Source: Nymphaea colorata (Eukaryota; Streptophyta; Magnoliopsida; Nymphaeales; Nymphaeaceae). Taken from it: 64,000 bases of DNA. The stretch spans positions 1,357,544 through 1,421,543 of the forward strand of contig NC_045151.1 in assembly GCF_008831285.2 (NCBI RefSeq), read 5' to 3'. Position 1 is the first letter of the stretch; each line of letters starts with the position of its first letter. The notes under the pieces were generated by a model. It had not been told where the DNA came from. It was given only the letters and a program-made list of their open reading frames with translations, and ran no database searches. The translations under genes and the position numbers were made by a program. This document shows, in pieces, positions 11,995 to 64,000 of this stretch.

Positions 11995-12042
<48 letters not shown>

Positions 12043-22661: not shown

Positions 22662-22693
<32 letters not shown>

Positions 22694-24305: not shown

Positions 24306-24340
<35 letters not shown>

Positions 24341-25686: not shown

Positions 25687-25719
<33 letters not shown>

Positions 25720-27334: not shown

Positions 27335-27385
<51 letters not shown>

Positions 27386-37500: not shown

Positions 37501-39125
37501 TTGACATGTTGAAAAATTTACTAGTACAAAAATTTACTAGTACAGCACATGCACATCCACTGTGTCCTGTTCTGGTTGTCTCTTGACGTAAAATCTCCTG
37601 GATATGCCTTTTGCGCAACAGGAGTCCCCACCCCCAACCTTCTCTTTGCTTCAGCCTGTAGCAGAGGTGAAGAGATGCACAATCTCGATAATCTCATTTC
37701 TTAGAGGCCTCAAGACAACTCATCTAGCCAGGTAAGATGACAATTTATAGGCTTAATCGTCTTTGTTTTGAAGAAATACAGGGTTGCTCCTTTGTCCATG
37801 CAAGCATTTCCAGAATTCTTTGACAGCCTTCACACTCCCCATATTGAAACCTCCAAGTCTCATCATCAATTAACACAAACAATCACCAAGATGCTAATTG
37901 TAAAACCTGTGTGAGCATCTTTTCTTAACAGTCCTAACTTCTTAACAAGAAAATCCGATATGAACTCTTCATTGATGTAAAAATTTTTCCACAATATGCA
38001 CCAAAGTTCAGAGAGCTACTAATAAAAAGTAAAATGGTGATACTAAACAGAAGAAAAACCCAAAGGAAAAGCTTAAAGAGATCAAAAGACAAAAGTTGCC
38101 AATGCGTGTTGCTTTTCTACTAGTTTCTACTAGAAATGGTCATTAAGCTTTTCCTTTGGGTTCTTCTTCTGTTTTAGTTTCTTAGCTCTTTAATATATAT
38201 ATAGTAAGGCTCGAACAGAATAATAAAAAAAGAAAGAAGCAGAAAAGCATGGATATACATTAAAGAGCAATTAAGTACATCAAAATAGAACATCAAGCTT
38301 TCAAGCATTGATACAGTCTCAGACAGGTCAAAAAGTACTCTATCCATCATTAGAGACATCACACTCTTCTGGGTATCCAAAACAAGAGGTCAACTGATAG
38401 TTATCTGATTACCAGGAGAACTAGAATATAAGTAAACAATAATGAGGACAAACTTAAGCATATCCCGGAAGATGTTAGGGGAAACAAAGAGCAGCCTATG
38501 TGACTCCAAAAGAAATAGAAGCCACAACTTTGAAACTGACTAGAACAGGCAAGTGAAAGATGGTGACAGCCACATGCTAGAAATATTCTTTAAAAGAAGA
38601 AAAACAAGATAAATATATAAATAAATAGACACCACTCACAAACACCATGAAATCAGGGGCAAAGCAAGGGGGGACCATGCAACCACCCGAAAACCCCCAA
38701 CACTCTCAAATTTTGTTAAAACAAAATTTCATAGTTAAAACTCCAAAAAATTTGCGTTTGGCACCTGCCAACTTTTGAAAAAACATAGTTTGGCCACTGT
38801 AAAAAAAAAATAATTGGCCCCTCCCAAACAAAATTTCTAGCTCCGTGCCTGCATGAAATAAAGGGGCACTATGAAAACTATAATACACGATATAGACTCC
38901 TTCCCCTGAGAAAAAAGAAGAAGATCAATGTACCCTTGTCTTAGTTTCACAACGAACATCCAGCTGTTGCAACCTAAGTGTGAGCCTTCCAGCAATCTGA
39001 TGACCAAGAAACCAAGGTACAAAATGGCATCCTGGCTCTAGTACATCCTCAAACCTTCCAAATCTCTCCTTGACAGCGACACTTGATTGCTTCACTTGTA
39101 CGCAGCAGCAAAGGTAATTTCCCAT
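34552..39125 (-). CDS. HIR: Hypersensitive-induced response protein A (SPFH/band-7 family)
   Basis: Five coding exons: 38934-39125, 35768-35888, 35592-35683, 35152-35248 and 34552-34913. Phases all agree and give 287 residues, the normal HIR length. It starts [11 protein letters not shown]: Gly2 fits N-myristoylation and Cys6-8 fit palmitoylation, giving plasma-membrane attachment. The band-7 domain follows with [38 protein letters not shown] and [20 protein letters not shown]. The C-terminal part has [20 protein letters not shown], the [15 protein letters not shown] helix and [23 protein letters not shown] proteins oligomerise in membrane microdomains and associate with NLR immune receptors. 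It differs from canonical HIR at [17 protein letters not shown] (usually IQYRALANKANDAYYKL). Intron 1 is long (3 kb). A splice acceptor touches the ATG, so the 5' leader is spliced. Confidence 0.95.
38655..38850. repeat. Related short element in HIR-A intron 1
   Basis: From GGGGCAAAGCAAGGGGGGACC to TTCTAGCTCCGTGCCTGCATG. It is the same border type as 25262-25449. Its copy at about 53215-53405 has lost many single bases. Confidence 0.45.
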
Positions 39126-39884
39126 CTGTAGAGGAATACATAAGAAGCATGGAATTTAAAAGAAGCAAATAAAGCTGCATAGGCAGACACCTGGAAAGGC
39201 ATATATCTCATTGCTAGTATAATCAAATGGAATTTCATGATAACCATGTCTAGCAAACTTGGTCATTGAGAGTGGTAACATAAAAAGCTTCATTCTATTG
39301 CCATATTCAACCAATTCACTGGCTAAATTGGTTGTGGATTCACTGGCTAAATATCACAAAATTATCCAAGTCATAGTTTAAGCTAGTGGTTCTGCTTTTT
39401 CTCAGCAACAATGAAATGCTGAAATTCTTGAGTTTTTTGTTTAGCAATATGTTCAATTATGTAAAGGGACAGTACTCTTTATCTGTAGCAGTGTTCTGAT
39501 GCAACGATCAACCACATTCTGGTGCTGCGATGAGACAAAATACCGAACTGATGCAAATCAAATCTTAGATGCATTTCATTTAATGAAATTCTGAAGCAGT
39601 GCTCCCACTTGCCTTTTCCTGTACTCGTTTTGAACAATCTAGTTTTCTTGTTCTTAGAAATAACCAACGTTTTTATAGACGGCAGGGCATATAGTTCATT
39701 TTCATAGTTCAGTGAAACTGTTTAGTTTATATTACAGAAGTAGATTCAGTAAAGTGGTATTTGGGAACCCTTTTTCTCAAAGAAAACTAATGTGAAGGTG
39801 TCCCAGAAGAATTAGCATGATCAATGCGAAATTCAACAAAAAATTCTACAAACTAACCATAAACATTAGACCTTTCACATATGT

Positions 39885-40075
39885 GTGGCCCCGTGATGGT
39901 GGCAAAGCTATGTTGCAACTGGTGTGGGCAATTGACCACACCAGCCCACAAAATTTACTTTATTTATATATAGAAACTTCATTAATTTTCAGTTTTTTAC
40001 ATATGAGTGATCTTTAAATTTTGAAATTTTAAAATTAGAGTGCCCCTTGACTAAAAATTTCTAGATCCTTCACTG
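39885..40075. repeat. Related short element in the HIR-A leader intron
   Basis: Contains GGTGTGGGCAATTGACCACACC and GAGTGCCCCTTGACTAAAAA. A close relative is at 15990-16165 (GGTGTGTGGCTGTTGCAGGC ... GAGTGCCCCTTATC). Confidence 0.45.
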
Positions 40076-40980
40076 TCCTGTGACAATTGAGTGGAAGCCA
40101 TCGCAATAAGTTCACAGATAAAGAACACAGTGCACATTGCCCTTACTTTTGCAGCAGCAACGGAGAAGAATATGAAACTTGAAGAAGATGTGGACCAAAG
40201 AAACCAAGGAACATTACTTGCACATGTAAGCTACCGATTTGTATGGACAAGGCATTTGCTGGAAATGCTAACGTTAACAAATTAAAGAGGCTTGAAAGAG
40301 CAAGAAGTGGATTAATCATCTTAAATATCCTTTGGGAATGGTCCCCTTCATAATACAGGTTCAAATCATAGTGACAAATATCTTTTTTGGGTTTTAAACG
40401 GCCAGATTTTTCTTGTGTATAATATGGTGAGATTGAAAAAATTAAAAAATATCATAAGTTTAAAAAAATAAAATCTTAAAAATTAAGAAAAAAATAAAAT
40501 AAATAAGAAACTAATAATAGAAGATCAGAAAATAAGTAGATAAGCAACAAATAAAAATTACAAAATGAAAACAAGCAGTCTGGCTTTAAAAAACATGAAA
40601 AAAACGTTTAAAATGAAAAAGAAAAATCTTTTTGGCTTTTTTTTCGTTTTGACGTCTTTTGCAACTGTGATTCAAATATACTGACATCAGGATCAGGATC
40701 CTTTTGGAAAAGCTAACTCGACATTGAGCGGCTAACAATGATAAAATAGTTGACTGATGCTTATCACAATGGGCCTGAACTACAGTTAAAGCCAAAAGTT
40801 AACATTTGAACAGGCTTACCAAACTCGAGCTTTACACGTAGCAGACACTAATATCAGTAGCAGGTTTAAAACTTTAAACAAAGCAACAAACAACATAGCC
40901 ACAAAATATCCTTCTCCTTTCACGTCACCAAGTCTGGTGAAGCACGAGAGGCTGAAGCAGTCGAAATATTCAAAGCGTAC

Positions 40981-41008
40981 CTCTCAGAATGAAGAGCGCT
41001 GGTGAAGA

Positions 41009-41046
<38 letters not shown>
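40981..41046 (-). promoter_or_regulatory. Probable non-coding first exon (5' leader) of HIR-A with GA-rich start
   Basis: Read on the minus strand, a 35-base GA tract (41012-41046) is followed by about 30 bases and a good donor (CTGAGAG|GTACGC, exon end 40981). The HIR-A ATG at 39125 is directly preceded by an acceptor (CTCTACAG), which implies a leader intron 39126-40980 of 1855 bases. HIR-B has the same layout. The transcription start itself is inferred. Confidence 0.55.
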
Positions 41047-41049
<3 letters not shown>

Positions 41050-41156
41050 TTAACCTGCTCTAGCCTAAATAGACAAGGCATCAGGAAGTAAACGCCTTGA
41101 AATGTCTAATAACTGATGTAAGCCTGACCGGGATTATTCTATAATATGCCTAAAAG

Positions 41157-41205
<49 letters not shown>

Positions 41206-41318
41206 TTAACCTGCTCTAGCCTAAATAGACAAGGCATCAGGAAGTAAACGCCTTGAAATGTCTAATAACTGATGTAAGCCTGACCGGGATTATTCTATAA
41301 TATGCCTAAAAGTCCATC
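41047..41318. repeat. Tandem duplication of the HIR-A promoter segment with CT tract
   Basis: A unit of about 116 bases starting GGATTAACCTGCTCTAGCC occurs at 41047 and again at 41203 (period 156). A 42-base CT tract (41161-41202) separates the copies, and another CT tract (41012-41046) precedes the first. The two 116-base units look identical. On the minus strand the unit holds AT-rich TATA-like stretches a short distance upstream of the GA tract, so the duplication places two promoter/leader modules in series. Confidence 0.85.
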
Positions 41319-42699
41319 TTTTGTGAAATTCAAAGCTCAAAACAGCCTTAACAAAGGAGAAGAAATTGTTGACGACGATAGAAAACAATTAACTACAGTG
41401 AGGTCCCACATTCTGGGGTATTAAAGAAAACACAAAGAAGAAGAAAAGAGGAAGGGAATCAACACAGGAACTAACGTGGTTAGACTTGACTGAAGCCCAC
41501 GTCCACGGGCAGGAAGCACTCACACCAGAATTTTATTGATATGCAGAGCAGTAAATATAATATCAATGGTGAGTCCGATTAAAAAGAATCGAAACATCTT
41601 CTCATTACAAGGCAGGTCATTCCTGCGCTCATTACAGGAGTGAATTTACGGTAAGAACATTTTTCCGAGACTGGTTTGCATATTCTTATAAAGTGCAAAC
41701 ATGACAGGAGTTTCTCTGAATTTTAAATGTATTTAAAAGCAACCACCTAATACTTAACAACTTAAAACAATTTTAAAAATCATTTAGTATAAGAATCACA
41801 TGCAATCAATGCATTCTTAATAAAACTTTCCTGGTGCCCTTCGAGCATCACCCAAAAAGGGAAAAGGAAAAGGCATGATGGTCTCCTCGTAGTTGTGCTA
41901 TGTCATCACAGGTAAGGACGTGCATGGAGTAGCCATATATCTCATTACAATAGACCACGATTGAATATGTGGGAACTGGGACACAAAAATCTTGGAAAAT
42001 TCCATGGCAAAACAAACATGGAACTTCAATTACGTGTGTTTTTATTCGGTCCAGGTTTTTCTTTTCCAAGATTATAATAACACCTTATAGGTGGAACTTT
42101 TGAGAGAGAGGGAGCATGAGAGACATGTGGTACTAGAGTTTGTGGAATAAAAGTTTCAGGTCACCATACAAGATGTAGTAGGTGGAACTGGAACTTTTGT
42201 TCCACTTGACAACCCTTTGGTATTAAATGTCTGGCATTTTAACGTCGGGCATTTTAGATCTGAAAACCATTTAGTTGGATTTGGTGAAGAAACTTGGATC
42301 TGATTGCCAATCGGGTTCAAATCTAACATGCAATTTCACAACTAAATCTGAACCCAAGTCCAACATTAAGCTGAGATCTTAAAAAGATACTGATTAAAAT
42401 ATAAACTTGAACCTTACGGTAGTCATATTCCAACCTGCTTTTGCAAAAAAAAGGACCTAATACAAGATAGGATGAGAAGCCAATCACCGTTTCCCTTAGC
42501 CAACCCTGATTTTTAAGATGCCGACTCTCCGGATTAATATGGCTTGCAAGTTATCTGATAATATCTTCCCTGTAGAGGCCTGAAAAAAAAAAGAAGGAGA
42601 AGGTAAAGTTGAAGCATCGCATTGCTCAAAGGGAAATCCAAGACCGAAGAAATTACCACATAATACTAAAAGCTGGGGAAGGAGAGTCTCTCTCTTAAG

Positions 42700-42985
42700 A
42701 TATTTAATATCCGATTAAGAAATCGAATAGGATTCAGATTTAAAAAATAGCATTCAATTGAATTTTGATTCAGATTCGGATATACATAAATGTCTGATTT
42801 GACTCAAATTTGGATTCGGCTATGAATATGGAAATCAAATTCAGACTGTGAAATTGGATTTTGAATTCAGATTCATATATAACTTTGCTGGTTCATGCTC
42901 AAATTGAAGTCAAATGCCAATATAAAAAAAAAAACTGATATGATTAAGGGTATATGATATATCTTATTCGAATTCGAATCTGTTG
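42700..42985. repeat. Dispersed repeat family A, upstream of HIR-A
   Basis: Contains ATATCCGATT, GGATTCAGATT and ends near CTGTTGACGTTCC. It is repeated at 57225-57510 in the post-gap copy. Confidence 0.6.
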
Positions 42986-44524
42986 ACGTTCCTTGTGCCC
43001 CCACTCAAACACTCTATCAAGCCTGATGTCACGCCAAATCGAAGACAAAACGTAATAAAAGAAACGTGGGTCAGCAGTACAAAAATTTCAAACCATAGAC
43101 TTCAGAAAAACTGCAGAAAGATCGCTTGCAACGGAGAAGTTTCCAGCCAGAGAGGGTTTGGCGTCGTAAAAACATTGTTGGAAACGAAAATGATGACGAC
43201 CCAAGTGAGAATATGCTAAGGCAGAGGAAAAAGACTTTAAGACCAAGCGAATTTTTAATCCGCAATAGCTGATTATCAAGATGAAATTGCTTACGAACAT
43301 CCTTTCAAGTTGCCTTCAAAAACTTTCGTGCATAAGTAGATGAGATCTAATCGCTTCAGATTAACAATCGTTTAGATGGCTTGATTTTCGCATTAAGCAC
43401 AAGGAAGGTGTATTGTATTTTTCGGGGTTCGAAGAGATGCAACCAAGGGGTTTTGCCCCCATTCGATCCTTTCTAAAACAAAACCAAATTGATAGAAAAA
43501 ACACAAACGAATTAAACCGTCAAAGTATATCATTACTGGCTTTTTTTTTTTAATATCGGTCTTTTGTTTTCAACTGTTTTATTTCTGATTTTGCTGCTTG
43601 TGTCGATTTTATGTTTGATTTTTGCGGTAAGAATCGAGTTTTGCTAAAGTGGACGTTTCACACTTAACTCTGTTTTGTTTCTGCGATTTCATAAAATCTC
43701 CTTATTTCGAATATTTGAATGTTTACTGCAGTAACTGGTTATTTTTGTTAGTTTCAGTGAGTATGGTTCTGCAGCATGGCGTTTAGGCAAGCTTACAAAT
43801 AGCTGAGTTGCTAAAAAGGTTTCTTTTGTGGGTGAGATTCAGGATTGTGCTGTGTCACTTTCTTTTTCACCTACAACCAATAAAGAGAAATGTAGCCACA
43901 TTTCTCGTTTGCAGTGTGAATTAATACCACTTTGCTCTTTAGGTGTCATCTCCGCTTTAGGACGAGATTAGAGTAGTATTACCGTTTTGTTTACAATTTG
44001 ATCTTCTTTAGCTTGAATAACTCTATACTTGTTTCAGGTTATACTTCATTTAGGTGGTCTTTAATTGCTTTCAACTCTACTGTGATTCTGTTTCCAGACT
44101 TTTCATCGTCATTATATTGTTTTCTAATGTTGTTTAGTGCGTTTTATGCGTACTTGTTTAGTGCTGTTTTAAACCTACTTGTTTAGGTATACCCACATGT
44201 TAAATTAATTTGGTTCTCTAGTACTATTTAGTACGTTTTATAGCTACTTGTTTAGGCTATACTGATACTTCTCCGTTTGACAGTTTGATCATCATTTAGC
44301 TTGTTAATAACTCTATATAGCTTACAGGTTATACTCCATTTAGGTGGATTTTAACTTATTCTAACTCTATATGGTTCCATTTTTACTTATATTGCTTTTT
44401 ACTTAGTTAATTGCATATGAATTTTGTTTTAAATGTAGATAGATTTTTTGTAGATACTATACATAGCAGAAGAGGAAGGCTGACAACTTGAAACAACTAG
44501 CCTGCATTGGCATAGAAGACAGTC

Positions 44525-44806
44525 TTATAAACCAAAGGCTCTCTTTGCCTTTTCAAGGATTTGCTGCTCAGCAAGCAAAAGATCAACACGAGTGGAGATG
44601 ACACTCCAGGCTTCTTTTTCCAGACGCTTTGGTAAGCGACCCAAGGAAGTTTGATTATAATCTAATTGAATTGAACGGGGAAAAGATGAAGCGCATTTAA
44701 TTGGTCGAGGCAAACGGATGGGAAATGTCCAAGGCTTGATCCTATAATCAAGTAGTTCTTTCGAGAGAAACGTTTGGCAACAATAATACATAATTAAATA
44801 ATACAT
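44525..44806 (-). other. Unrecognised open frame of 93 codons, possibly a gene or element remnant
   Basis: The frame ends with a polar helical stretch (KRLEKEAWSVISTRVDLLLA then EQQILEKAKRAFGL and stop). I do not recognise it. There is no convincing upstream exon. The part before 44806 joins low-complexity sequence whose motifs (missing-letter repeats such as CAGATTCATAAGACAATAAC) resemble repeats at 1060-1330 and 17630-17800. In the duplicate copy the frame is longer (59052-59495) only because of a homopolymer difference. Most likely a decayed element, or a last exon of an unknown gene. Confidence 0.25.
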
Positions 44807-45342
44807 TGTTATTGTCTTATGAATCTGCTCAAGAAATGGAGTAGATACTATGTATCGTCTTTTTTTTTTTTTGGGGTAAGTTCATAATACAGTAACATAG
44901 TATTAATGTTACCAAACGGTAACGGCCCCAAAGAGACGGAGCACTTCCCCCTAATCAAACCATTCACTCAGGACGAGGAGTGACTGACAAGGGATTTTGA
45001 AGAAGTGAGGCGTACCGAAATACCTGTACGTGAATGGTTTTATGTTACATAGATTAACACAGAAAAAGGAACAAAACAACAGGAAACAAGTTGGTGGCTT
45101 ACAAACCGCATAAACAATACTTCACAAGCTTGAAATGTACAAAAAAGATGTTCTGATCCTTTTTTTTTTTTTTTCCGTTTTCCTCGTTGCTTATAGACGT
45201 AGTCACATATATCCACACAAGCAAACAAAAAAGAAAAACAAAACCAAACCAATTAACCAAACCAATAACCACAATACCATCTAGTGCAAGAAGTAAGCTT
45301 TCAAATGATGCTTCAAAGTCTCAGACAATCCCCATGAGTGTT

Positions 45343-48300
45343 CTACTGCGGTGTAGCCTGAAGCAGCCCATCCCTGATCTGAGAAGCGATATCCCGCACT
45401 GCACCTGGGCCATGAGGGATGAAAACAGATGATGACTTTGATGATGCACCAATCTCCTTCATTGTGTCAAAGTACTGGGTGACCAGCACCATGTCCATGA
45501 CATCCTTGGCGGTGGTTCCAGGCACATTTACAGAAAAAGCAAGCACACTGTCCCTCAGACCATCGACGATTGCCTGCCGCTGACGGGCTATGCCAAGCCC
45601 AGCCAGGTACTTTGATTCTGCATCTCCCTCGGCCCGCTTGATCTGCAGTATCTTCTCCGCTTCTGCCTTCTCATTAGCTGCTACCCTCAATCTGGCAGCT
45701 GCAATTCAATTCCAGTATGTTAAGGCCCAAACTGCATTCGATCATAGCTACAGTACCAAAATTACGTTAAGATTCTCCATCAGCTGCCTATATACATGTA
45801 AAGCTCTAACAACTCTGCTATTGGCGATCAAAGCCCCAACAAAATAGACCGGCATAGAATTTTAGAAACAGAGGTTGGTTCAGCCGACTACCTCTGACAC
45901 CTTCAGGCTTCAGCCAAATGACACCAAAAGTTCGTTTCGAATATTGGATACATACTATAATATTTGGCCTACTTGGTAGAAGAATTGAGAAGGAAAAGCA
46001 TGATTGAGACCCTCTTAAAATCGTAGTTCAACAGTACAAGCCTAGGATAAACAAACTCTTTTGATCAGTTCAGTGACCTCTATGACTGAACCCGATTTAG
46101 AACTGTTCGGTAACCAGGAGAACACTAGATCCAACATTCATAATCATATCTGCCCAACTTAGGTCAAGAGAGTCTACCTGCATTTATTTCATTCATTGCT
46201 CGCTTAACATGTTCGTCCGGGTTGATATCAACAATAAGTGTCTGGACTATCTCGTAGCCATATGCTGACATGGCCTACATGTAGAAATAATTTTTTTTTT
46301 CAACAAACATAGAGAAGTTCACTACATTACCACTAAAGCTCACAAGATAAACAATATGAAAATTACCTTCTCAAGCTCATCTTCTACAGCTTTAGCAATT
46401 TCATTCTTTTGTTCAAATGCATCATCCAGGTTCAACTTTGGAACACTAGCCCTAATGACTGCACACACACACACAAAAAAAAGACTTAACTTTCTTGTCC
46501 TAATGGCTGCTCAAAGAAAAGAAAAAAGTTGCTTATTCCTTTTTGTTTGCTTTGAATATCTCCGTCCATGAAAAGTTTCCATTAGTACAATACAGAAGAA
46601 TCTCAATATGACAGAACTTAATAGCAAGAAGCCAATCCCATCTCATATTTCAAGCAAACACACTTACAATAGTAGCCTATGATACAGAACAAATGAGTGA
46701 AATAATAGAAAAGACTATTCAAAAGTGAAGAGGAAAAGTTGTCTGTGACACATCAGAGAATGCTCTTCACATGCCTACATTTTATCATTCACGTGCAATG
46801 GTTATGCTTGAAAGAAATGGGCGAGGCAATTGAACCACCTACTTCAACGCAAAGAGGAACTGTTGTTCCCTGATGCCTTAGAATATGTTTGTATGCCTGA
46901 ATTACAACAAGTTGGAGTTCATGCCTTTTGAAGCAAATTATAATATCATGGCCTTTATACATAATGGTGGACTGCTACGTTTAATACACCAGCTGAAAGA
47001 ACACATAGAGTAAGCAAAATAGAGGGGCTTGAACCCTCAATTACTTTTTCTTCGTGTGTACTTCATTAAGGGCAACCATAGTTGCAGTCTTTGGTTTCTT
47101 GGCATGGACAGTTATGTGTCCCTCTTGTACTTTCTTTCAGTGTAATACATACCATATGATACGGAGCCGTATTGTCCAACACGTATCGTGTGTGCCCGTG
47201 TTGGCCGTATCTTACGATACGGCTCTGTTTTTGCAAAGGCATCCAATGCCTCTTTTTTGTTGAGATTTATTTTTTTAAAGTTCCTCTCTCCTTCATAGTG
47301 CACTAATATATTATGGCCAAAACAAAAGAGGAGTGAGAGGGATTAAACAACACAAATTGATGCTTCACCTTTCTAATAAATATAGAACACCAAAATGAAT
47401 TTAAATGATTTTGCCTTATTGGAACAAATTTGAAATCATATATGAAAAAGAAAAAACATAGGATCTGCCAACCCTGCCTTCTGATTGACAATAAGTCATA
47501 TTTTTACACACTTCCATCTGCAAACAGAATGCACTTTTAGTTTAACATACCATCAAAAACATAAGCTTGTATCTGCTCACGTGTGTTGCTGAGCTTGTAA
47601 AAAGCATCCGCAGCTTTATCTGCCAAGGCACGATACTGAACAGATGCAACAACTGTAACAAATACATTATCCTGCAAAATGAAAGACAATTTAGCATCAT
47701 TGAGCCAGCAGGGTTTTAGCCAGATGAGGACTGACCTCTTTCCATCCGTAAAGTAAGTAATAGTCAAGGAACCATGGATCTAACATTAATTAAGATGCTT
47801 AGCAATCCACAAACATGGCAACTGGAGTGCTGGTATTATAGCAGCCAACACTGTTAATGAGTTGGATGTAAAGTTCACCTAAATCAGTAGGTCCAACAGT
47901 GACAGATGACCCGGATCAAGATCCTGACAGTCTTAATAGATTTTAACAATGAAAGCAAGGATCCACGTTGACAAAAAAAATTATAACTTCCAAGCATCAT
48001 TACAAAAGAAATATTCATTACAAGAGAAATATTGAACTTGGTAAAAAAAAAAAAAAAAAAAGAGGAAACCTGAATACTGAATCAATTAAAGCTGTCTTGT
48101 TGAAACATAGACAAGGTTCAGGAAAGTAAAACCAACTCACCTACCAAAGGTCAAAAAAAAAACCCATGTGGATACCATCTCTGAGATATGTTAAATAAGG
48201 CAAACGTGAATAGTTTTTCAATTCAGATCAAAAATTATTTACATGGATCACATAATCCACCACATAGAATATGTGTTTACTTATTCAAATATGAACAATT

Positions 48301-48699
48301 TATGCATCATAAAATGTTTAGCAGGTTTTCTTGTGACCCAAATGCATAAAGGATTCATATTTCAAATGGTCATCTTCATAACTTAAGACCCTAGATCTCC
48401 TAAAATGGTATACAATCCATGGTCACGACTTGTGACTACATCTTGCTGTCTGTGAATGGATGAAACAGAATGGGAACTGAATATAAATGCAAGCTAAGAG
48501 AACAATCGACCTTAGTTTTCGTCTCACAATGAACGTCAAGTTGTTGCACTCGCAGTGAAAGGTAGCCTGCTACTTGTCTTCCCAAGCACCAAGGAAGTAA
48601 GTGGCATCCTGGTTCAAGCACCTCATCAAACTTTCCAAATGTCTCCCTAATAGCAACTGTTGACTGGTCTACTTGCAAGCAGCAGAACAATTGCCCCAT
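45343..48699 (-). CDS. HIR: Hypersensitive-induced response protein B (SPFH/band-7 family)
   Basis: Five coding exons: 48511-48699, 47551-47671, 46367-46458, 46178-46274 and 45343-45698, giving 284 residues. The N terminus [20 protein letters not shown] keeps Gly2 and Cys6-7 for lipid anchoring. [68 protein letters not shown] and [20 protein letters not shown] are textbook HIR segments. Exon lengths 2-4 (121, 92, 97) equal those of HIR-A, so the pair arose by duplication. This copy is closer to canonical HIR and is probably the more conserved member. Role by family: membrane-microdomain scaffold in defence and hypersensitive cell death. A leader intron (48710-50529) is likely. An almost exact second copy stands at 59874-63231. 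Confidence 0.97.
47150..47235. repeat. CGTATC-rich imperfect palindrome in HIR-B intron 2
   Basis: GATACGGAGCCGTATTG ... CCAACACGTATCGTGTG ... GTGTTGGCCGTATC ... GATACGGCTC forms nested short inverted repeats, a GC-richer island in AT-rich intron. It is repeated exactly at about 61682-61767. Probably a remnant of a small DNA element. Confidence 0.55.
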
Positions 48700-50529
48700 G
48701 ATCTACGTTCTACAGAATGGGAATGGTAATCAGCATCAAAGGTTCAAAAGTGAAAAACAACGAAGAACCAGATAAACTATATCCTTGTTATCACGAGTAA
48801 GAAAATTGTCATAGCATCCAGGCTCCAACAACAAGAACAAGTTCCCGCAGATGAAAGTTTCACCACTGTTGAAGATCAACTAACTGTGGCATATCATTAC
48901 AACATATATCAGGAAACCAAGAGTCACAGACCACATTAGGCAGCAAAAGATCTTAGCAAGCTTCCATGTTTCATGAGTCCAATTGGCAAGATCTTCAATT
49001 TTATAGGAGCTTAATTTGAATTCACCCTCCCTCATGGTCACAGAAGGACGGCAAAAAGTAGAAAGACATGAGTAAGCAAACAATAAACAGTTGATTAATC
49101 GACTAGATTTGCAGAATGTTATGAAAAGCAAAAGCTAGAGCTACGGAGCAACAAACCAATGTGCCTTTTAGATGTTGAGAAACCAATAGCTTGGCAACGC
49201 CTTCAATAACTAATGAAATATCTCTCAACGACTAGGTGATTGGACACAATTTAAACGGCTTGACCACAGAAAGCTTCCAGGAAGCGACAATGAAAACTTA
49301 TCCTGGCCGAATATTCTAACTTCACGACACCGCAACCCTATCTGATGAGATTTCTCTCGTTCTCATCACTCCTTGTTTCGACGTAGCATGAGAAATGACT
49401 TTTGCACTGGGAACGAATTCAATACATGCAAGCAACCCACAGCAAATGGACATAAGCTTTTTAGTCTCTGCCCATCAAAGTCAACGAATAAAATATAGGA
49501 AAAGCACAGGCTAAGCAACAACTGAATGACCAAAACTATATGGTTTAAAGTTCAAGTATCTGTCAACAAGGACGAGATAAGAAAAACATGGTGTATGAAA
49601 CAACACATAAAACCGTTGAGAGAAGATGAAAAAGAAAACCAGGAAACTAACTATTGCCCAGCAGATGCTTCTTCGATCTGGTACTTGTTCGTAGAAACAA
49701 GAAAACAAAAAGTGAGGTAATTTACTGTTGGTATCCGGTACTTATAAATGAAGTACGAAGAACGATGGCCCACAAGGAACCTTCTTTCTCACTAAGCGAG
49801 ACACAAGGAAGCATCCCAGTGGTTTCCTAACTTTCCCTAATCCTTATACCCTCCAAGACAAGGCACTTCCACCTTTACCAGGAAAGACCGCCAGCAAGGG
49901 CCCAGGTCAGCCTGATAACTGGCGACTGTCGACTTTAGATTATATTAAATAAGCATTTTTTATAGTGCAGCCGAATCAGGAATCAATAACTTGTGGTATT
50001 ATCAGTTTCCCAAAGGAGAAAAATTTCAAAAAGGGCCATAATTAGCGAAAAAAATAAAGGCGGAATTTACCGGCGTGAACACTTCAGGAAATTCAGAAAA
50101 AAAAAGTTTGAAAAAAAGCACATAAATTGCATTAAACCTTCCGTAATTCGAAACTCGGAAATTTTCCAAGGATTAGCAGAGCGATTGATCCAGTTTAGCA
50201 AAATTGGGCATCAAAGGAAAGAGATAAGCCAGATAATCTGTTAATTGCAGGAAAAAAAAAAGTGAAATTATGAAGATATAAAAGCGCTCGAGCATTCTCA
50301 AAGTTCCAACCAGAACAGCCTCGCGCTCAGAGAAATCAGGGTTTTCTTCTACGATTCCCATCGATTGGTTCTACAAGGACCGTCAGAATTGCTATAATTC
50401 CCCCAAAAAGAATACACAATTCGTTAGCCGTAAACAAGAAAAGGCACATCCCGAGTGCCGAGACCGAAAGTCTTAAGCCTATCTTCCAAGAAAACCAAAT
50501 AACAGAGAAATTAAGAAAGAGAATCCTAC

Positions 50530-51174: not shown

Positions 51175-51384
51175 TATAATAACGGTAGCGAGGGAGGACG
51201 GAGAGAGAGAGAGAGAGCACGTCGTCTTCCTTTGCTCTGCTTTTGTTGTGCGGGATCGGTCGTTTAAGTAATTCTGTAATCTGTTGATCGTGGCCCGGAA
51301 TACGTATCGGCTAAGCTTAGCGAATCGGACATTTCCTAGTCTTACCTTCGCTCTTTCTCTCTTGTCGAACTCGGCGGATCATCG
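51175..51384 (+). promoter_or_regulatory. Mirror image of the HIR-B promoter and leader exon (right arm of fold-back)
   Basis: This is the reverse complement of 50530-50745, so it reads promoter then leader on the plus strand and ends at ATCG|GTAGG (51384). The TATA-like motif has lost two bases (TATAATAACGG). No HIR coding sequence follows before the gap. If real it would be a divergent promoter; I think it is an artefact. Confidence 0.6.
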
Positions 51385-52414
51385 GTAGGATCTCTTTCTT
51401 AATTTCTCTGTTATTTGTTTCTTGGAAGATAGGCTAAGACTTCGGTCTCGGCACTCGGATTGCCTTTCTTGTTTACGGCTAACGAATTGTGTATTCTTTT
51501 TGGGGGAAATTATAGCAATTCTGACGGTCCTTGTAGAACCAATCGATGGGAATCGTAGAAGAAAACCCTGATTTCTCTGAGCGCGAGGCTGTCTGGTTGG
51601 AACTTTGAGAAGCTCGAGCGCTTTTATATCTTCATAATTTCACTTTTTTTTTCCTGCAATTAACAGATTATCTGGCTTATCTCTTTCCTTTGATGCCCAA
51701 TTTTGCTAAACTGGATCAATCGCTCTGCTAATCCTTGGAAAATTTCCGAGTTTCGAATTACGGAAAGGTTTAATGCAATTTATGTGCTTTTTTCAAACTT
51801 TTTTTTCTGAATTTCCTGAAGTGTTCACGCCGGTAAATTCCGCCTTATTTTTCGCTAATTATGGCCCTTTTGAAATTTTCTCCTTGGGAAACTGATAATA
51901 CCACAATTATTGATTCCTGATTCGGCTGCACTATAAAAATGCTTATTAATATAATCTAAAGTCGACAGCTCGCCAGTTATCAGGCTGACCTGGGCCCTTG
52001 CTGGCGGTCTTCCTGTAAAGGTGGAAGTGCCTTGTCTTGGAGGTATAAGGATTAGGGAAAGTTAGGAAACCACTGGGATGCTTCCTGTGTCTCGCTTAGT
52101 GAGAAAGAAGGTTCCTTGTGGCCATCGTTCTTCGTACTTCATTTATAAGTACCGGAATACCAACAGTAAATTACCTCACTTTTGTTTTCTTGTTTCTACG
52201 AACAATACCAGATCGAAGAAGCATCTGCTGGCAATAGTTATTTCCTGTTTCTTTTCATCTTCTCTCAACGGTTTTATGTGTTGTTTCATACACCATGTTT
52301 TCTTATCTCGTCCTGTGACAGATACTTGAACTTTAAACCATATAGTTTTGGTCATTCAGTTGTTGCTTAGCCTGTGCTTTCCTATATTTTATTCGTTGAC
52401 TTTGATGGGCAGAG

Positions 52415-52514: not shown

Positions 52515-53477
52515 AGAAAATCCGATATGAACTCTTCATTGATGTAAAAATTTTTCCACATATGCACCAAAGTTCAGAGAGCTACTAATAAAAAGTAAAA
52601 TGGTGATACTAAACAGAAAAAACCCAAAGGAAAAGCTTAAAGAGATCAAAAGACAAAAGTTGCCAATGCGTGTTGCTTTTCTACTAGTTTCTACTAGAAA
52701 TGGTCATTAAGCTTTTCCTTTGGGTTCTTCTTCTGTTTTAGTTTCTTAGCTCTTTAATATATATATAGTAAGGCTCGAACAGAATAATAAAAAAAGAAAG
52801 AAGCAGAAAAGCATGGATATACATTAAAGGCAATTAAGTACATCAATAGAACATCAAGCTTTCAAGCATTGATACAGTCTCAGACAGGTCAAAAAGTACT
52901 CTATCCATCATTAGAGACATCACACTCTTCTGGGTATCCAAAACAAGAGGTCAACTGATAGTTATCTGATTACCAGGAGAACTAGAATATAAGTAAACAA
53001 TAATGAGGACAAACTTAAGCATATCCCGGAAGATGTTAGGGGAAACAAAGAGCAGCCTATGTGACTCCAAAAGAAATAGAAGCCACAACTTTGAAACTGA
53101 CTAGAACAGGCAAGTGAAAGATGTGACAGCCACATGCTAGAAATATTCTTTAAAAGAAGAAAAACAAGATAAATATATAAATAAATAGACACCACTCACA
53201 AACACCATGAAATCAGGGGCAAGCAAGGGGGACATGCAACCACCCGAAACCCCCAACACTCTCAAATTTTGTTAAACAAAATTTCATAGTTAAAACTCCA
53301 AAAATTTGCGTTGGCACCTGCCAACTTTTGAAAAACATAGTTTGGCCACTGTAAAAAAAAATAATTGGCCCCTCCAAACAAAATTTCTAGCTCCGTGCCT
53401 GCATGAAATAAAGGGGCACTATGAAACATAATACCGATATAGACTCCTTCCCTGAGAAAAAAGAAAGATCAATGTAC

Positions 53478-53666
53478 CCTTGTCTAGTTTCACAACGAAC
53501 ATCCAGCTGTTGGCAACCTAAGTGTGAGCCTTCCAGCAATCTGATGACCAAAAACCAAGGTACAAAATGGCATCCTGGCTCTAGTACATCCTCAAACCTT
53601 CCAAATCTCTCCTTGACAGCGACACTTGATTGCTTCCTTGTACGCAGCAGCAAAGGTATTTCCCAT
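53478..53666 (-). pseudogene. Frameshifted copy of HIR-A exon 1 next to the gap
   Basis: This corresponds to HIR-A exon 1 (38934-39125) but carries at least five one-base indels (four losses, one gain), leaving 189 instead of 192 bases. The frame breaks after MGN. Exons 2-5 of HIR-A have no copy after the gap, because the duplicate starts inside HIR-A intron 1. The surrounding 52515-55200 shows the same one-base losses in non-coding sequence, so uncorrected read errors are likelier than true decay. Confidence 0.85.
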
Positions 53667-55507
53667 CTGTAGAGGAATACATAAGAAGCATGGAATTTAA
53701 AAGAAGCAAATAAAGCTGCATAGGCAGACACCTGGAAAGGCATATATCTCATTGCTAGTTAATCAAATGGAATTTCATGATAACCATGTCTAGCAAACTT
53801 GGTCATTGAGAGTGGGTAACATAAAAGCTTCATTCTATTGCCATATTCAACCAATTCACTGGCTAAATTGGTTGTGGATTCACTGGCTAAATATCACAAA
53901 ATTATCCAAGTCATAGTTAAAGCTAGTGGTTCTGCTTTTTCTCAGCAACAATGAAATGCTGAAATTCTTGAGTTTTTTGTTTAGCAATATGTTCAATTAT
54001 GTAAAGGGACGTACTCTTTATCTGTAGCAGTGTTCTGATGCAACGATCAACCACATTCTGGTGCTGCGATGAGACAAAATACCGAACTGATGCAAATCAA
54101 ATCTTAGATGCATTTCATTTAATGAAATTCTGAAGCAGTGCTCCCACTTGCCTTTCCTGTACTCGTTTTGAACAATCTAGTTTTTGTTCTTAGAAATAAC
54201 CAACGTTTTTATAGACGGCAGGCATATAGTTCATTTTCATAGTTCATGAAACTGTTTAGTTTATATTACAGAAGTAGATTCAGTAAAGTGGTATTTGGGA
54301 ACCCTTTTTCTCAAAGAAAACTAATGTGAAGGTGTCCCAGAAGAATTAGCATGATCAATGCGAAATTCAACAAAAATTCTACAAACTAACCATAAACATT
54401 AGACCTTTCACATATGTGTGGCCCCGTGATGGTGGCAAAGCTATGTTGCAACTGGTGTGGGGCAATTGACCACACCAGCCCACAAAATTTACTTTATTTA
54501 TATATAGAAACTTCATTAATTTTCAGTTTTTTACATATGAGTGATCTTTAAATTTTGAAATTTTAAAATTAGAGTGCCCTTGACTAAAATTTCTAGATCC
54601 TTCACTGTCCTGTGACAATTGAGTGGAAGCCATCGCAATAAGTTCACAGATAAAGAACACAGTGCACATTGCCCTTACTTTTGCAGCAGCAACGGAGAAG
54701 AATATGAAACTTGAAGAAGATGTGGACCAAAGAAACCAAGGAACATACTTGCACATGTAAGCTACCGATTTGTATGGACAAGGCATTTGCTGGAAATGCT
54801 AACGTTAACAAATTAAAGAGCTTGAAAGAGCAAGAAGTGGATTAATCATCTTAAATATCCTTTGGGAATGGTCCCCTTCATAATACAGGTTCAAATCATA
54901 GTGACAAATATCTTTTTTGGGTTTTAAACGGCCAGATTTTTCTTGTGTATAATATGGTGAGATTGAAAAATTAAAAAATATCATAAGTTTAAAAAAATAA
55001 AATCTTAAAAATTAAGAAAAAATAAAATAAATAAGAAACTAATAATAGAAGATCAGAAATAAGTAGATAAGCAACAAATAAAAATTACAAAATGAAAACA
55101 AGCAGTCTGGCTTTAAAAAACATGAAAAAACGTTTAAAATGAAAAAGAAAATCTTTTTGGCTTTTTTTTCGTTTTGACGTCTTTTGCAACTGTGATTCAA
55201 ATATACTGACATCAGGATCAGGATCCTTTTGGAAAAGCTAACTCGACATTGAGCGGCTAACAATGATAAAATAGTTGACTGATGCTTATCACAATGGGCC
55301 TGAACTACAGTTAAAGCCAAAAGTTAACATTTGAACAGGCTTACCAAACTCGAGCTTTACACGTAGCAGACACTAATATCAGTAGCAGGTTTAAAACTTT
55401 AAACAAAGCAACAAACAACATAGCCACAAAATATCCTTCTCCTTTCACGTCACCAAGTCTGGTGAAGCACGAGAGGCTGAAGCAGTCGAAATATTCAAAG
55501 CGTACCT

Positions 55508-55533
55508 CTCAGAATGAAGAGCGCTGGTGAAGA

Positions 55534-55574
<41 letters not shown>

Positions 55575-55681
55575 TTAACCTGCTCTAGCCTAAATAGACA
55601 AGGCATCAGGAAGTAAACGCCTTGAAATGTCTAATAACTGATGTAAGCCTGACCGGGATTATTCTATAATATGCCTAAAAG

Positions 55682-55730
<49 letters not shown>

Positions 55731-55845
55731 TTAACCTGCTCTAGCCTAAATAGACAAGGCATCAGGAAGTAAACGCCTTGAAATGTCTAATAACTGATGT
55801 AAGCCTGACCGGGATTATTCTATAATATGCCTAAAAGTCCATCTT
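55508..55845 (-). promoter_or_regulatory. Second copy of the duplicated HIR-A promoter/leader
   Basis: Repeats 40981-41318: a leader donor near 55508, a CT tract at 55537-55571, a 116-base unit, a CT tract at 55686-55727, then the second unit. Tract lengths equal the first copy. It stands before the frameshifted HIR-A exon 1 copy, so no product is expected. Confidence 0.8.
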
Positions 55846-58800
55846 TTGTGAAATTCAAAGCTCAAAACAGCCTTAACAAAGGAGAAGAAATTGTTGACGA
55901 CGATAGAAAACAATTAACTACAGTGAGGTCCCACATTCTGGGGTATTAAAGAAAACACAAAGAAGAAGAAAAGAGGAAGGGAATCAACACAGGAACTAAC
56001 GTGGTTAGACTTGACTGAAGCCCACGTCCACGGGCAGGAAGCACTCACACCAGAATTTTATTGATATGCAGAGCAGTAAATATAATATCAATGGTGAGTC
56101 CGATTAAAAAGAATCGAAACATCTTCTCATTACAAGGCAGGTCATTCCTGCGCTCATTACAGGAGTGAATTTACGGTAAGAACATTTTTCCGAGACTGGT
56201 TTGCATATTCTTATAAAGTGCAAACATGACAGGAGTTTCTCTGAATTTTAAATGTATTTAAAAGCAACCACCTAATACTTAACAACTTAAAACAATTTTA
56301 AAAATCATTTAGTATAAGAATCACATGCAATCAATGCATTCTTAATAAAACTTTCCTGGTGCCCTTCGAGCATCACCCAAAAAGGGAAAAGGAAAAGGCA
56401 TGATGGTCTCCTCGTAGTTGTGCTATGTCATCACAGGTAAGGACGTGCATGGAGTAGCCATATATCTCATTACAATAGACCACGATTGAATATGTGGGAA
56501 CTGGGACACAAAAATCTTGGAAAATTCCATGGCAAAACAAACATGGAACTTCAATTACGTGTGTTTTTATTCGGTCCAGGTTTTTCTTTTTCCAAGATTA
56601 TAATAACACCTTATAGGTGGAACTTTTGAGAGAGAGGGAGCATGAGAGACATGTGGTACTAGAGTTTGTGGAATAAAAGTTTCAGGTCACCATACAAGAT
56701 GTAGTAGGTGGAACTGGAACTTTTGTTCCACTTGACAACCCTTTGGTATTAAATGTCTGGCATTTTAACGTCGGGCATTTTAGATCTGAAAACCATTTAG
56801 TTGGATTTGGTGAAGAAACTTGGATCTGATTGCCAATCGGGTTCAAATCTAACATGCAATTTCACAACTAAATCTGAACCCAAGTCCAACATTAAGCTGA
56901 GATCTTAAAAAGATACTGATTAAAATATAAACTTGAACCTTACGGTAGTCATATTCCAACCTGCTTTTGCAAAAAAAAGGACCTAATACAAGATAGGATG
57001 AGAAGCCAATCACCGTTTCCCTTAGCCAACCCTGATTTTTAAGATGCCGACTCTCCGGATTAATATGGCTTGCAAGTTATCTGATAATATCTTCCCTGTA
57101 GAGGCCTGAAAAAAAAAAAGAAGGAGAAGGTAAAGTTGAAGCATCGCATTGCTCAAAGGGAAATCCAAGACCGAAGAAATTACCACATAATACTAAAAGC
57201 TGGGGAAGGAGAGTCTCTCTCTTAAGATATTTAATATCCGATTAAGAAATCGAATAGGATTCAGATTTAAAAATAGCATTCAATTGAATTTTGATTCAGA
57301 TTCGGATATACATAAATGTCTGATTTGACTCAAATTTGGATTCGGCTATGAATATGGAAATCAAATTCAGACTGTGAAATTGGATTTTGAATTCAGATTC
57401 ATATATAACTTTGCTGGTTCATGCTCAAATTGAAGTCAAATGCCAATATAAAAAAAAAAACTGATATGATTAAGGGTATATGATATATCTTATTCGAATT
57501 CGAATCTGTTGACGTTCCTTGTGCCCCCACTCAAACACTCTATCAAGCCTGATGTCACGCCAAATCGAAGACAAAACGTAATAAAAGAAACGTGGGTCAG
57601 CAGTACAAAAATTTCAAACCATAGACTTCAGAAAAACTGCAGAAAGATCGCTTGCAACGGAGAAGTTTCCAGCCAGAGAGGGTTTGGCGTCGTAAAAACA
57701 TTGTTGGAAACGAAAATGATGACGACCCAAGTGAGAATATGCTAAGGCAGAGGAAAAAGACTTTAAGACCAAGCGAATTTTTAATCCGCAATAGCTGATT
57801 ATCAAGATGAAATTGCTTACGAACATCCTTTCAAGTTGCCTTCAAAAACTTTCGTGCATAAGTAGATGAGATCTAATCGCTTCAGATTAACAATCGTTTA
57901 GATGGCTTGATTTTCGCATTAAGCACAAGGAAGGTGTATTGTATTTTTCGGGGTTCGAAGAGATGCAACCAAGGGGTTTTGCCCCCATTCGATCCTTTCT
58001 AAAACAAAACCAAATTGATAGAAAAAACACAAACGAATTAAACCGTCAAAGTATATCATTACTGGCTTTTTTTTTTTAATATCGGTCTTTTGTTTTCAAC
58101 TGTTTTATTTCTGATTTTGCTGCTTGTGTCGATTTTATGTTTGATTTTTGCGGTAAGAATCGAGTTTTGCTAAAGTGGACGTTTCACACTTAACTCTGTT
58201 TTGTTTCTGCGATTTCATAAAATCTCCTTATTTCGAATATTTGAATGTTTACTGCAGTAACTGGTTATTTTTGTTAGTTTCAGTGAGTATGGTTCTGCAG
58301 CATGGCGTTTAGGCAAGCTTACAAATAGCTGAGTTGCTAAAAAGGTTTCTTTTGTGGGTGAGATTCAGGATTGTGCTGTGTCACTTTCTTTTTCACCTAC
58401 AACCAATAAAGAGAAATGTAGCCACATTTCTCGTTTGCAGTGTGAATTAATACCACTTTGCTCTTTAGGTGTCATCTCCGCTTTAGGACGAGATTAGAGT
58501 AGTATTACCGTTTTGTTTTACAATTTGATCTTCTTTAGCTTGAATAACTCTATACTTGTTTCAGGTTATACTTCATTTAGGTGGTCTTTAATTGCTTTCA
58601 ACTCTACTGTGATTCTGTTTCCAGACTTTTCATCGTCATTATATTGTTTTCTAATGTTGTTTAGTGCGTTTTATGCGTACTTGTTTAGTGCTGTTTTAAA
58701 CCTACTTGTTTAGGTATACCCACATGTTAAATTAATTTGGTTCTCTAGTACTATTTAGTACGTTTTATAGCTACTTGTTTAGGCTATACTGATACTTCTC

Positions 58801-59873
58801 CGTTTGACAGTTTGATCATCATTTAGCTTGTTAATAACTCTATATAGCTTACAGGTTATACTCCATTTAGGTGGATTTTAACTTATTCTAACTCTATATG
58901 GTTCCATTTTTACTTATATTGCTTTTTACTTAGTTAATTGCATATGAATTTTGTTTTAAATGTAGATAGATTTTTTGTAGATACTATACATAGCAGAAGA
59001 GGAAGGCTGACAACTTGAAACAACTAGCCTGCATTGGCATAGAAGACAGTCTTATAAACCAAAGGCTCTCTTTGCCTTTTCAAGGATTTGCTGCTCAGCA
59101 AGCAAAAGATCAACACGAGTGGAGATGACACTCCAGGCTTCTTTTTCCAGACGCTTTGGTAAGCGACCCAAGGAAGTTTGATTATAATCTAATTGAATTG
59201 AACGGGGAAAAGATGAAGCGCATTTAATTGGTCGAGGCAAACGGATGGGAAATGTCCAAGGCTTGATCCTATAATCAAGTAGTTCTTTCGAGAGAAACGT
59301 TTGGCAACAATAATACATAATTAAATAATACATTGTTATTGTCTTATGAATCTGCTCAAGAAATGGAGTAGATACTATGTATCGTCTTTTTTTTTTTTTT
59401 GGGGTAAGTTCATAATACAGTAACATAGTATTAATGTTACCAAACGGTAACGGCCCCAAAGAGACGGAGCACTTCCCCCTAATCAAACCATTCACTCAGG
59501 ACGAGGAGTGACTGACAAGGGATTTTGAAGAAGTGAGGCGTACCGAAATACCTGTACGTGAATGGTTTTTATGTTACATAGATTAACACAGAAAAAGGAA
59601 CAAAACAACAGGAAACAAGTTGGTGGCTTACAAACCGCATAAACAATACTTCACAAGCTTGAAATGTACAAAAAAGATGTTCTGATCCTTTTTTTTTTTT
59701 TTTTCCGTTTTCCTCGTTGCTTATAGACGTAGTCACATATATCCACACAAGCAAACAAAAAAAGAAAAACAAAACCAAACCAATTAACCAAACCAATAAC
59801 CACAATACCATCTAGTGCAAGAAGTAAGCTTTCAAATGATGCTTCAAAGTCTCAGACAATCCCCATGAGTGTT

Positions 59874-62800
59874 CTACTGCGGTGTAGCCTGAAGCAGCCC
59901 ATCCCTGATCTGAGAAGCGATATCCCGCACTGCACCTGGGCCATGAGGGATGAAAACAGATGATGACTTTGATGATGCACCAATCTCCTTCATTGTGTCA
60001 AAGTACTGGGTGACCAGCACCATGTCCATGACATCCTTGGCGGTGGTTCCAGGCACATTTACAGAAAAAGCAAGCACACTGTCCCTCAGACCATCGACGA
60101 TTGCCTGCCGCTGACGGGCTATGCCAAGCCCAGCCAGGTACTTTGATTCTGCATCTCCCTCGGCCCGCTTGATCTGCAGTATCTTCTCCGCTTCTGCCTT
60201 CTCATTAGCTGCTACCCTCAATCTGGCAGCTGCAATTCAATTCCAGTATGTTAAGGCCCAAACTGCATTCGATCATAGCTACAGTACCAAAATTACGTTA
60301 AGATTCTCCATCAGCTGCCTATATACATGTAAAGCTCTAACAACTCTGCTATTGGCGATCAAAGCCCCAACAAAATAGACCGGCATAGAATTTTAGAAAC
60401 AGAGGTTGGTTCAGCCGACTACCTCTGACACCTTCAGGCTTCAGCCAAATGACACCAAAAGTTCGTTTCGAATATTGGATACATACTATAATATTTGGCC
60501 TACTTGGTAGAAGAATTGAGAAGGAAAAGCATGATTGAGACCCTCTTAAAATCGTAGTTCAACAGTACAAGCCTAGGATAAACAAACTCTTTTGATCAGT
60601 TCAGTGACCTCTATGACTGAACCCGATTTAGAACTGTTCGGTAACCAGGAGAACACTAGATCCAACATTCATAATCATATCTGCCCAACTTAGGTCAAGA
60701 GAGTCTACCTGCATTTATTTCATTCATTGCTCGCTTAACATGTTCGTCCGGGTTGATATCAACAATAAGTGTCTGGACTATCTCGTAGCCATATGCTGAC
60801 ATGGCCTACATGTAGAAATAATTTTTTTTTTCAACAAACATAGAGAAGTTCACTACATTACCACTAAAGCTCACAAGATAAACAATATGAAAAATTACCT
60901 TCTCAAGCTCATCTTCTACAGCTTTAGCAATTTCATTCTTTTGTTCAAATGCATCATCCAGGTTCAACTTTGGAACACTAGCCCTAATGACTGCACACAC
61001 ACACACAAAAAAAAGACTTAACTTTCTTGTCCTAATGGCTGCTCAAAGAAAAGAAAAAGTTGCTTATTCCTTTTTGTTTGCTTTGAATATCTCCGTCCAT
61101 GAAAAGTTTCCATTAGTACAATACAGAAGAATCTCAATATGACAGAACTTAATAGCAAGAAGCCAATCCCATCTCATATTTCAAGCAAACACACTTACAA
61201 TAGTAGCCTATGATACAGAACAAATGAGTGAAATAATAGAAAAGACTATTCAAAAGTGAAGAGGAAAAGTTGTCTGTGACACATCAGAGAATGCTCTTCA
61301 CATGCCTACATTTTATCATTCACGTGCAATGGTTATGCTTGAAAGAAATGGGCGAGGCAATTGAACCACCTACTTCAACGCAAAGAGGAACTGTTGTTCC
61401 CTGATGCCTTAGAATATGTTTGTATGCCTGAATTACAACAAGTTGGAGTTCATGCCTTTTGAAGCAAATTATAATATCATGGCCTTTATACATAATGGTG
61501 GACTGCTACGTTTAATACACCAGCTGAAAGAACACATAGAGTAAGCAAAATAGAGGGGCTTGAACCCTCAATTACTTTTTCTTCGTGTGTACTTCATTAA
61601 GGGCAACCATAGTTGCAGTCTTTGGTTTCTTGGCATGGACAGTTATGTGTCCCTCTTGTACTTTCTTTCAGTGTAATACATACCATATGATACGGAGCCG
61701 TATTGTCCAACACGTATCGTGTGTGCCCGTGTTGGCCGTATCTTACGATACGGCTCTGTTTTTGCAAAGGCATCCAATGCCTCTTTTTTGTTGAGATTTA
61801 TTTTTTTAAAGTTCCTCTCTCCTTCATAGTGCACTAATATATTATGGCCAAAACAAAAGAGGAGTGAGAGGGATTAAACAACACAAATTGATGCTTCACC
61901 TTTCTAATAAATATAGAACACCAAAATGAATTTTAAATGATTTTGCCTTATTGGAACAAATTTGAAATCATATATGAAAAAGAAAAAACATAGGATCTGC
62001 CAACCCTGCCTTCTGATTGACAATAAGTCATATTTTTACACACTTCCATCTGCAAACAGAATGCACTTTTAGTTTAACATACCATCAAAAACATAAGCTT
62101 GTATCTGCTCACGTGTGTTGCTGAGCTTGTAAAAAGCATCCGCAGCTTTATCTGCCAAGGCACGATACTGAACAGATGCAACAACTGTAACAAATACATT
62201 ATCCTGCAAAATGAAAGACAATTTAGCATCATTGAGCCAGCAGGGTTTTAGCCAGATGAGGACTGACCTCTTTCCATCCGTAAAGTAAGTAATAGTCAAG
62301 GAACCATGGATCTAACATTAATTAAGATGCTTAGCAATCCACAAACATGGCAACTGGAGTGCTGGTATTATAGCAGCCAACACTGTTAATGAGTTGGATG
62401 TAAAGTTCACCTAAATCAGTAGGTCCAACAGTGACAGATGACCCGGATCAAGATCCTGACAGTCTTAATAGATTTTAACAATGAAAGCAAGGATCCACGT
62501 TGACAAAAAAAATTATAACTTCCAAGCATCATTACAAAAGAAATATTCATTACAAGAGAAATATTGAACTTGGTAAAAAAAAAAAAAAAAAAAGAGGAAA
62601 CCTGAATACTGAATCAATTAAAGCTGTCTTGTTGAAACATAGACAAGGTTCAGGAAAGTAAAACCAACTCACCTACCAAAGGTCAAAAAAAAAACCCATG
62701 TGGATACCATCTCTGAGATATGTTAAATAAGGCAAACGTGAATAGTTTTTCAATTCAGATCAAAAATTATTTACATGGATCACATAATCCACCACATAGA

Positions 62801-63231
62801 ATATGTGTTTACTTATTCAAATATGAACAATTTATGCATCATAAAATGTTTAGCAGGTTTTCTTGTGACCCAAATGCATAAAGGATTCATATTTCAAATG
62901 GTCATCTTCATAACTTAAGACCCTAGATCTCCTAAAATGGTATACAATCCATGGTCACGACTTGTGACTACATCTTGCTGTCTGTGAATGGATGAAACAG
63001 AATGGGAACTGAATATAAATGCAAGCTAAGAGAACAATCGACCTTAGTTTTCGTCTCACAATGAACGTCAAGTTGTTGCACTCGCAGTGAAAGGTAGCCT
63101 GCTACTTGTCTTCCCAAGCACCAAGGAAGTAAGTGGCATCCTGGTTCAAGCACCTCATCAAACTTTCCAAATGTCTCCCTAATAGCAACTGTTGACTGGT
63201 CTACTTGCAAGCAGCAGAACAATTGCCCCAT
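59874..63231 (-). CDS. HIR: Second copy of HIR-B, probably an assembly duplicate
   Basis: Exons at 63043-63231, 62083-62203, 60899-60990, 60709-60805 and 59874-60229 encode the same 284-residue protein as 45343-48699. Introns match base for base apart from a few one-base differences, for example an extra a before exon 3. A poly-A run of 19 bases has the same length in both copies. A real paralogue would be expected to differ more in introns and repeats. Treat as the same gene until long reads show otherwise. Confidence 0.9.
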
Positions 63232-64000
63232 GATCTACGTTCTACAGAATGGGAATGGTAATCAGCATCAAAGGTTCAAAAGTGAAAAACAACGAAGAAC
63301 CAGATAAACTATATCCTTGTTATCACGAGTAAGAAAATTGTCATAGCATCCAGGCTCCAACAACAAGAACAAGTTCCCGCAGATGAAAGTTTCACCACTG
63401 TTGAAGATCAACTAACTGTGGCATATCATTACAACATATATCAGGAAACCAAGAGTCACAGACCACATTAGGCAGCAAAAGATCTTAGCAAGCTTCCATG
63501 TTTCATGAGTCCAATTGGCAAGATCTTCAATTTTATAGGAGCTTAATTTGAATTCACCCTCCCTCATGGTCACAGAAGGACGGCAAAAAGTAGAAAGACA
63601 TGAGTAAGCAAACAATAAACAGTTGATTAATCGACTAGATTTTGCAGAATGTTATGAAAAGCAAAAGCTAGAGCTACGGAGCAACAAACCAATGTGCCTT
63701 TTAGATGTTGAGAAACCAATAGCTTGGCAACGCCTTCAATAACTAATGAAATATCTCTCAACGACTAGGTGATTGGACACAATTTAAACGGCTTGACCAC
63801 AGAAAGCTTCCAGGAAGCGACAATGAAAACTTATCCTGGCCGAATATTCTAACTTCACGACACCGCAACCCTATCTTGATGAGATTTCTCTCGTTCTCAT
63901 CACTCCTTGTTTCGACGTAGCATGAGAAATTGACTTTTGCACTGGGAACGAATTCAATACATGCAAGCAACCCACAGCAAATGGACATAAGCTTTTTAGT

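Follow-up and report, generated by a model that had tools for sequence, protein, structure and literature searches.

Do two nearly identical copies of a stretch of Nymphaea colorata DNA, lying on either side of a scaffold gap, represent two loci of the plant genome, or a single locus that was assembled twice? The window analysed here is the whole stretch of 64,000 nucleotides presented above (C14:1357544-1421543, from an assembly of 407.8 Mb in 783 contigs), and positions past 64000 are window coordinates carried on into the flanking DNA that we fetched. A first-pass annotation of the window described an 11.5-kb direct duplicate and took it to be probably one locus assembled twice, which is also the best reading of the results reported below. 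Absent from that account was an inverted copy that precedes the gap (50921-52414). The segments on which the argument turns are the following.

37948-50920, + strand: the locus as contig 1 carries it (forward arm), overlapping contig 2 at 52515-65461
50921-52414, - strand: fold-back tail with which contig 1 ends, the reverse complement of 64001-65552 in contig 2
52415-52514, no strand: scaffold gap of 100 N, the sole N run in the 293 kb examined
52515-64000 and on to 65461, + strand: contig 2 copy of the locus, followed by sequence that is absent from the forward arm of contig 1
52515-55180, + strand: poorly corrected start of contig 2 (right border approximate), with 41 deletions, 3 insertions and 1 substitution relative to 37948-40650

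Overlap of the two contigs

Comparison of the window with itself by BLAST aligned 37948-49465 with 52515-64000 at 99.45% identity, with 1 mismatch and 59 gap openings, in agreement with the earlier description of a duplicate that departs from its partner by small indels. The duplicate is therefore real, but its assigned extent of 11.5 kb is not: the match ends at 64000 because the window ends there, whereas the fetched DNA from 64001 onward is contig 2 carried on, without N, and the copies reach 50920 and 65461 (64001-65461 against 49466-50920: 0 mismatches, 6 gap openings). The full overlap measures 12,973 bp in contig 1 and 12,947 bp in contig 2, and relative to contig 1 the second contig carries 43 deletions, 21 insertions and 1 substitution (64 indels). 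Most of the 23 and 27 substitutions in a MAFFT alignment were shifted gaps, and with mismatches penalised more strictly, as with BLAST, there were 0 to 2 substitutions per comparison.

The clustering of indels after the gap that the first-pass annotation had noticed was borne out by the counts, 45 of the 65 overlap differences falling in 37948-40650. The remaining 20 are spread over the 10.3 kb of 40651-50920; all are single-base or short indels with no substitution among them, and the 14 that lie within the window are without exception in homopolymer runs. Eighteen of these 20 are bases missing from contig 1, so that contig 1 too drops bases, though rarely. The cleanness of these 10.3 kb in both contigs indicates decent support for each of them there, support that a copy made from one or two reads would lack, which is a point against a single locus assembled twice. 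The two stretches of worst quality are the contig ends at the scaffold gap.

Two CT tracts (35 and 42 bases) and a 19-base poly-A have the same length in both copies, as had been claimed, but two T runs vary by one base between them (13/14 and 15/16), and tract equality is therefore not general. A tandem repeat with an exact 156-base unit (2.0 copies, 100%, one CT tract per unit) is found in both contigs, at 41012-41319 and again at 55537-55844.

A search of the genome with 49466-50920 listed three matches, all of them local pieces of the locus, and a search with 38500-39500 gave at least 13 matches, of which 2 were full-length, both of them here, and at least 11 were partial at 70-78%. The search scores the best candidates only, so that repeats may be undercounted; among the matches listed there was no further full-length copy of the locus. 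Within 293 kb around the gap, the overlap and the inverted segment were the only repeats to reach a length of 1 kb with an identity of 92% or higher.

The kind of difference between the copies

The window holds its own control for the way in which true duplicates diverge, in the form of an old tandem duplication in which pieces of 759-13322 match 17343-31351 (72-100% per piece, most of them 76-88%, at an offset of mostly ~16.3 kb). Its 27 aligned pieces, a few of which overlap or lie in AT repeats, add up to 8589 bp and contain 1275 mismatches and 239 gap openings. Set against this ratio, the single substitution and 64 indels of the overlap are of the kind that sequencing errors leave, and not of the kind that substitution leaves (Fisher's test, p 2e-47); the same holds for the clean part of the overlap (0:20, p 2e-16) and for the inverted tail of contig 1 (0:47, p 8e-37), the overlap and the tail having been pooled (1:105) in an earlier form of the test. 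The ratio of substitutions to indels relative to a true duplicate in the same window, along with the strand bias of missing bases described below, serves here as a cheap test for false duplication that needs the sequence only.

The old tandem duplication includes a Sulfotransfer_2-like exon copy at 6444-6902, with a similar frame at 22851-23219. Of six raw ORF stretches compared with Pfam, one was matched, to Sulfotransfer_2 at 20.7 bits, below the cut-off of 22. A tandem repeat of period 152 (2.7 copies, 81% matches) occupies 9219-9643.

The inverted end of contig 1

Within the window, 49466-50920 is the reverse complement of 51000-52414 (BLAST: 96.6%, 2 mismatches, 46 gap openings), and the end of contig 1 from 50914 to 52414 is the reverse complement of contig 2 from 65552 to 64001 (0 mismatches, 48 gap openings). 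Aligned with contig 2, the 1.5-kb tail shows 47 deletions, 0 insertions and 0 substitutions. Thirty-eight of the 47 deletions fall where the same base occurs at least twice in succession; one of the 47, an 8-base gap at the junction, may be part of the fold and not an error. The bases missing from the tail, read in the forward sense and compared as far as 65544, are A 33, C 16, T 1 and G 0, a strand bias that departs from the composition of the bases in runs (A/T, p 7e-5; C/G, p 3e-4). With 49 A or C missing and 1 T or G, reads of one strand are indicated. Reads from the other strand should correct errors of this type, and the one-sided loss argues that such reads were lacking in the tail. In the poor start of contig 2, where the missing bases are A 26, G 8, T 6 and C 5, the bias is weak (A/T, p 0.04; C/G, p 0.4), which is a point on the other side.

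The forward arm ends at AGTCCAG (equivalent to 65455-65461) and the return begins at its near-complement CTGGGACT (65545-65552), with a loop of 83 bases between the two halves of this inverted match. Such a short match would fit a strand that folded back on itself. The borders of the fold are 91 bases apart (from the equivalent of 65461 to 65552), on the same locus and on opposite strands. When the assembled contigs are compared, contig 2 crosses the fold site unfolded, and the 79-base spacer is genomic sequence, part of the strand that was turned. A palindrome extending into this spacer was considered and set aside, half matched against half being no better than background. Six adapter sequences were compared with the fold on both strands, and none of the 12 scores rose above background, the lowest background fraction being 0.39. 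A fold-back in contig 1 can explain why that contig stops where it does.

The HIR-like genes

The duplicated stretch carries one complete gene and the first exon of another, which the first-pass annotation had assigned to the HIR type. The name is its own, and is backed here by similarity to a query sequence.

34567-39125, - strand: HIR-like gene 1, SPFH/Band 7; exon 1 (38934-39125) is inside the duplicated stretch and open
45352-48699, - strand: HIR-like gene 2, SPFH/Band 7; inside the duplicated stretch
53483-53635, - strand: putative false duplicate of exon 1 of gene 1, with its residues scattered over three frames; contig 2 has no other part of this gene
59883-63231, - strand: putative false duplicate of gene 2, all 5 exons of which are identical to their counterparts in 45352-48699

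With exons joined by hand, both HIR-like genes matched PF01145 (SPFH/Band 7; E 9e-31 and 5e-28). The first exon of gene 1 has an open frame in contig 1, whereas its counterpart in contig 2 is frameshifted. The exons of gene 2, 858 bp in all, contain none of the 14 differences that the clean zone shows within the window, a result that chance would also give with numbers as small as these. In line with the expectation that gene counts taken from this scaffold would overstate HIR genes, gene 2 is the one repeated, and if the contig 2 copies are false the local number of HIR-like genes is two and not three. To judge from their sequences, genes 1 and 2 form a tandem pair of older date, a very different case from the false copy.

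The last exons of the two genes (34571-34896 and 45356-45681) align without gaps at 75% identity, with 80 mismatches. Upstream of gene 1, or in its first intron, 38705-38850 has dispersed partial relatives in the genome at 70-78% and is possibly an old mobile-element fragment. A Lys/Glu-rich open frame of 135 aa at 32750-33157 was without a Pfam match at E 0.001, and the window gave 0 Rfam matches.

A proposed origin, and its alternatives

Taken together, these observations make it very probable that one locus is present in two contigs that overlap but were placed one after the other in the scaffold, the first of them ending in a fold-back artefact. Contig 1 would have been assembled rightwards to 50920 and would then have run into a chimeric long read made of a strand followed by its complement, so that it ended in 1.5 kb of its own locus, reversed. 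Contig 2, built from reads with the true continuation, would start 12.9 kb further to the left, within the coverage of contig 1, and run on rightward. With the inverted tail in place the contig ends would not have matched end to end, and the scaffolder would have inserted its 100 N, which may be why both copies were kept.

The fold-back itself would have been born in the library or during sequencing and not in the genome, and the reads appear to have been nanopore-like, the loss of bases in the tail resembling nanopore error more closely, to judge by the error profiles of the platforms. Fold-back reads amount to ~0.55-0.6% of ONT genomic reads in the data given in PMC12870357, whose authors think that they arise in library preparation and whose passage on three PacBio samples reports no systematic problem. 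In nanopore sequencing, according to the account in PMC7229812, bases are miscalled and missed in the second arm of an inverted duplicate. This effect would degrade a real inverted duplicate too.

A second reading retains the fold-back tail and regards the two contigs as the parental haplotypes of a diploid locus, a haplotig having been left in the scaffold (a heterotype false duplication). The 10.3 kb that are clean in either copy, as would be expected with separate reads for each, speak in its favor. Haplotypes that differ should show substitutions, however, and there are none in 40651-50920 and one in the whole 12,973 bp; the 20 clean-zone differences are of the indel type already described, and the 14 that fall inside the window all sit in homopolymer runs. 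We regard this reading as improbable, while noting that identical haplotypes are indistinguishable by sequence from a single locus.

More improbable still is a genuine duplication of very recent date whose copies flank an inverted part, brought about by fold-back or by template switching in replication. The succession of forward, inverted and forward segments has the right geometry for such an event, and so does the short inverted match at the fold. Nevertheless, the copies differ by missing bases and not by substitutions, the errors in the tail are strand-biased, the gap sits exactly between the inverted part and the second copy, and a conserved exon is frame-damaged solely in the poor stretch. 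A version in which an extremely recent duplication with an inverted part arose at the HIR gene pair through fold-back synthesis at the inverted match, all missing bases coming from poor consensus alone, is equally hard to credit.

A further reading, in which one contig ended in a 26-kb palindrome that was cut at 52414 and had its outer arm reversed, drew on the exact abutment of the mirror image of 52414 (49466) with the counterpart of 64000 (49465), for which the chance is ~1 in 13,000 given an arbitrary window end, but it is refuted by the DNA past the window, where contig 2 runs on through the locus and beyond without N, and the abutment is a coincidence of the window cut. An excess of differences over the final 400 bases up to 64000 (3, p 0.016), considered as a sign of a contig end, is moot, since the contig continues.

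If one locus in two overlapping contigs is the right account, the redundant sequence on C14 comes to ~14.4 kb, made up of the fold-back tail and the second copy. Users of the assembly would count one HIR-like gene twice, and might take the frameshifted copy of gene 1 exon 1 for a pseudogene and the fold-back tail for an inverted duplication.

Relationship to known artefacts

Homotype false duplication, as set out in the relevant passages of PMC9516828, consists of under-collapsed copies caused by sequence errors, and false duplicates that are separated by a gap are likewise traced there to sequence errors. The present case shares with this class its near-identical copies that differ by sequencing errors and its false gene gain, and its copies too lie on one scaffold on either side of a gap. 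It departs from the class in the fold-back tail that lies between the copies, and the class as described there is defined by depth and k-mers.

The tail in turn resembles the fold-back artefact reads described in PMC12870357, in which the latter part of a read aligns to the locus of the former part, but on the other strand; the 91 bases between the borders here are within the limit of 200 bases used in that paper, and a further likeness is that no adapter-like sequence was found at the fold. Unlike in that paper, the fold is seen here in an assembled contig and not in reads. Palindromic long reads, which in the account of PMC6218980 arise through whole-genome amplification or missed SMRTbell adapters, are similar in being artificial inverted duplications able to reach assemblies. 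Reads with missed adapters, as that source describes them, differ from the fold here, at which SMRTbell adapters were without a match. The locus has the appearance of an assembly error of a known type and not of biology.
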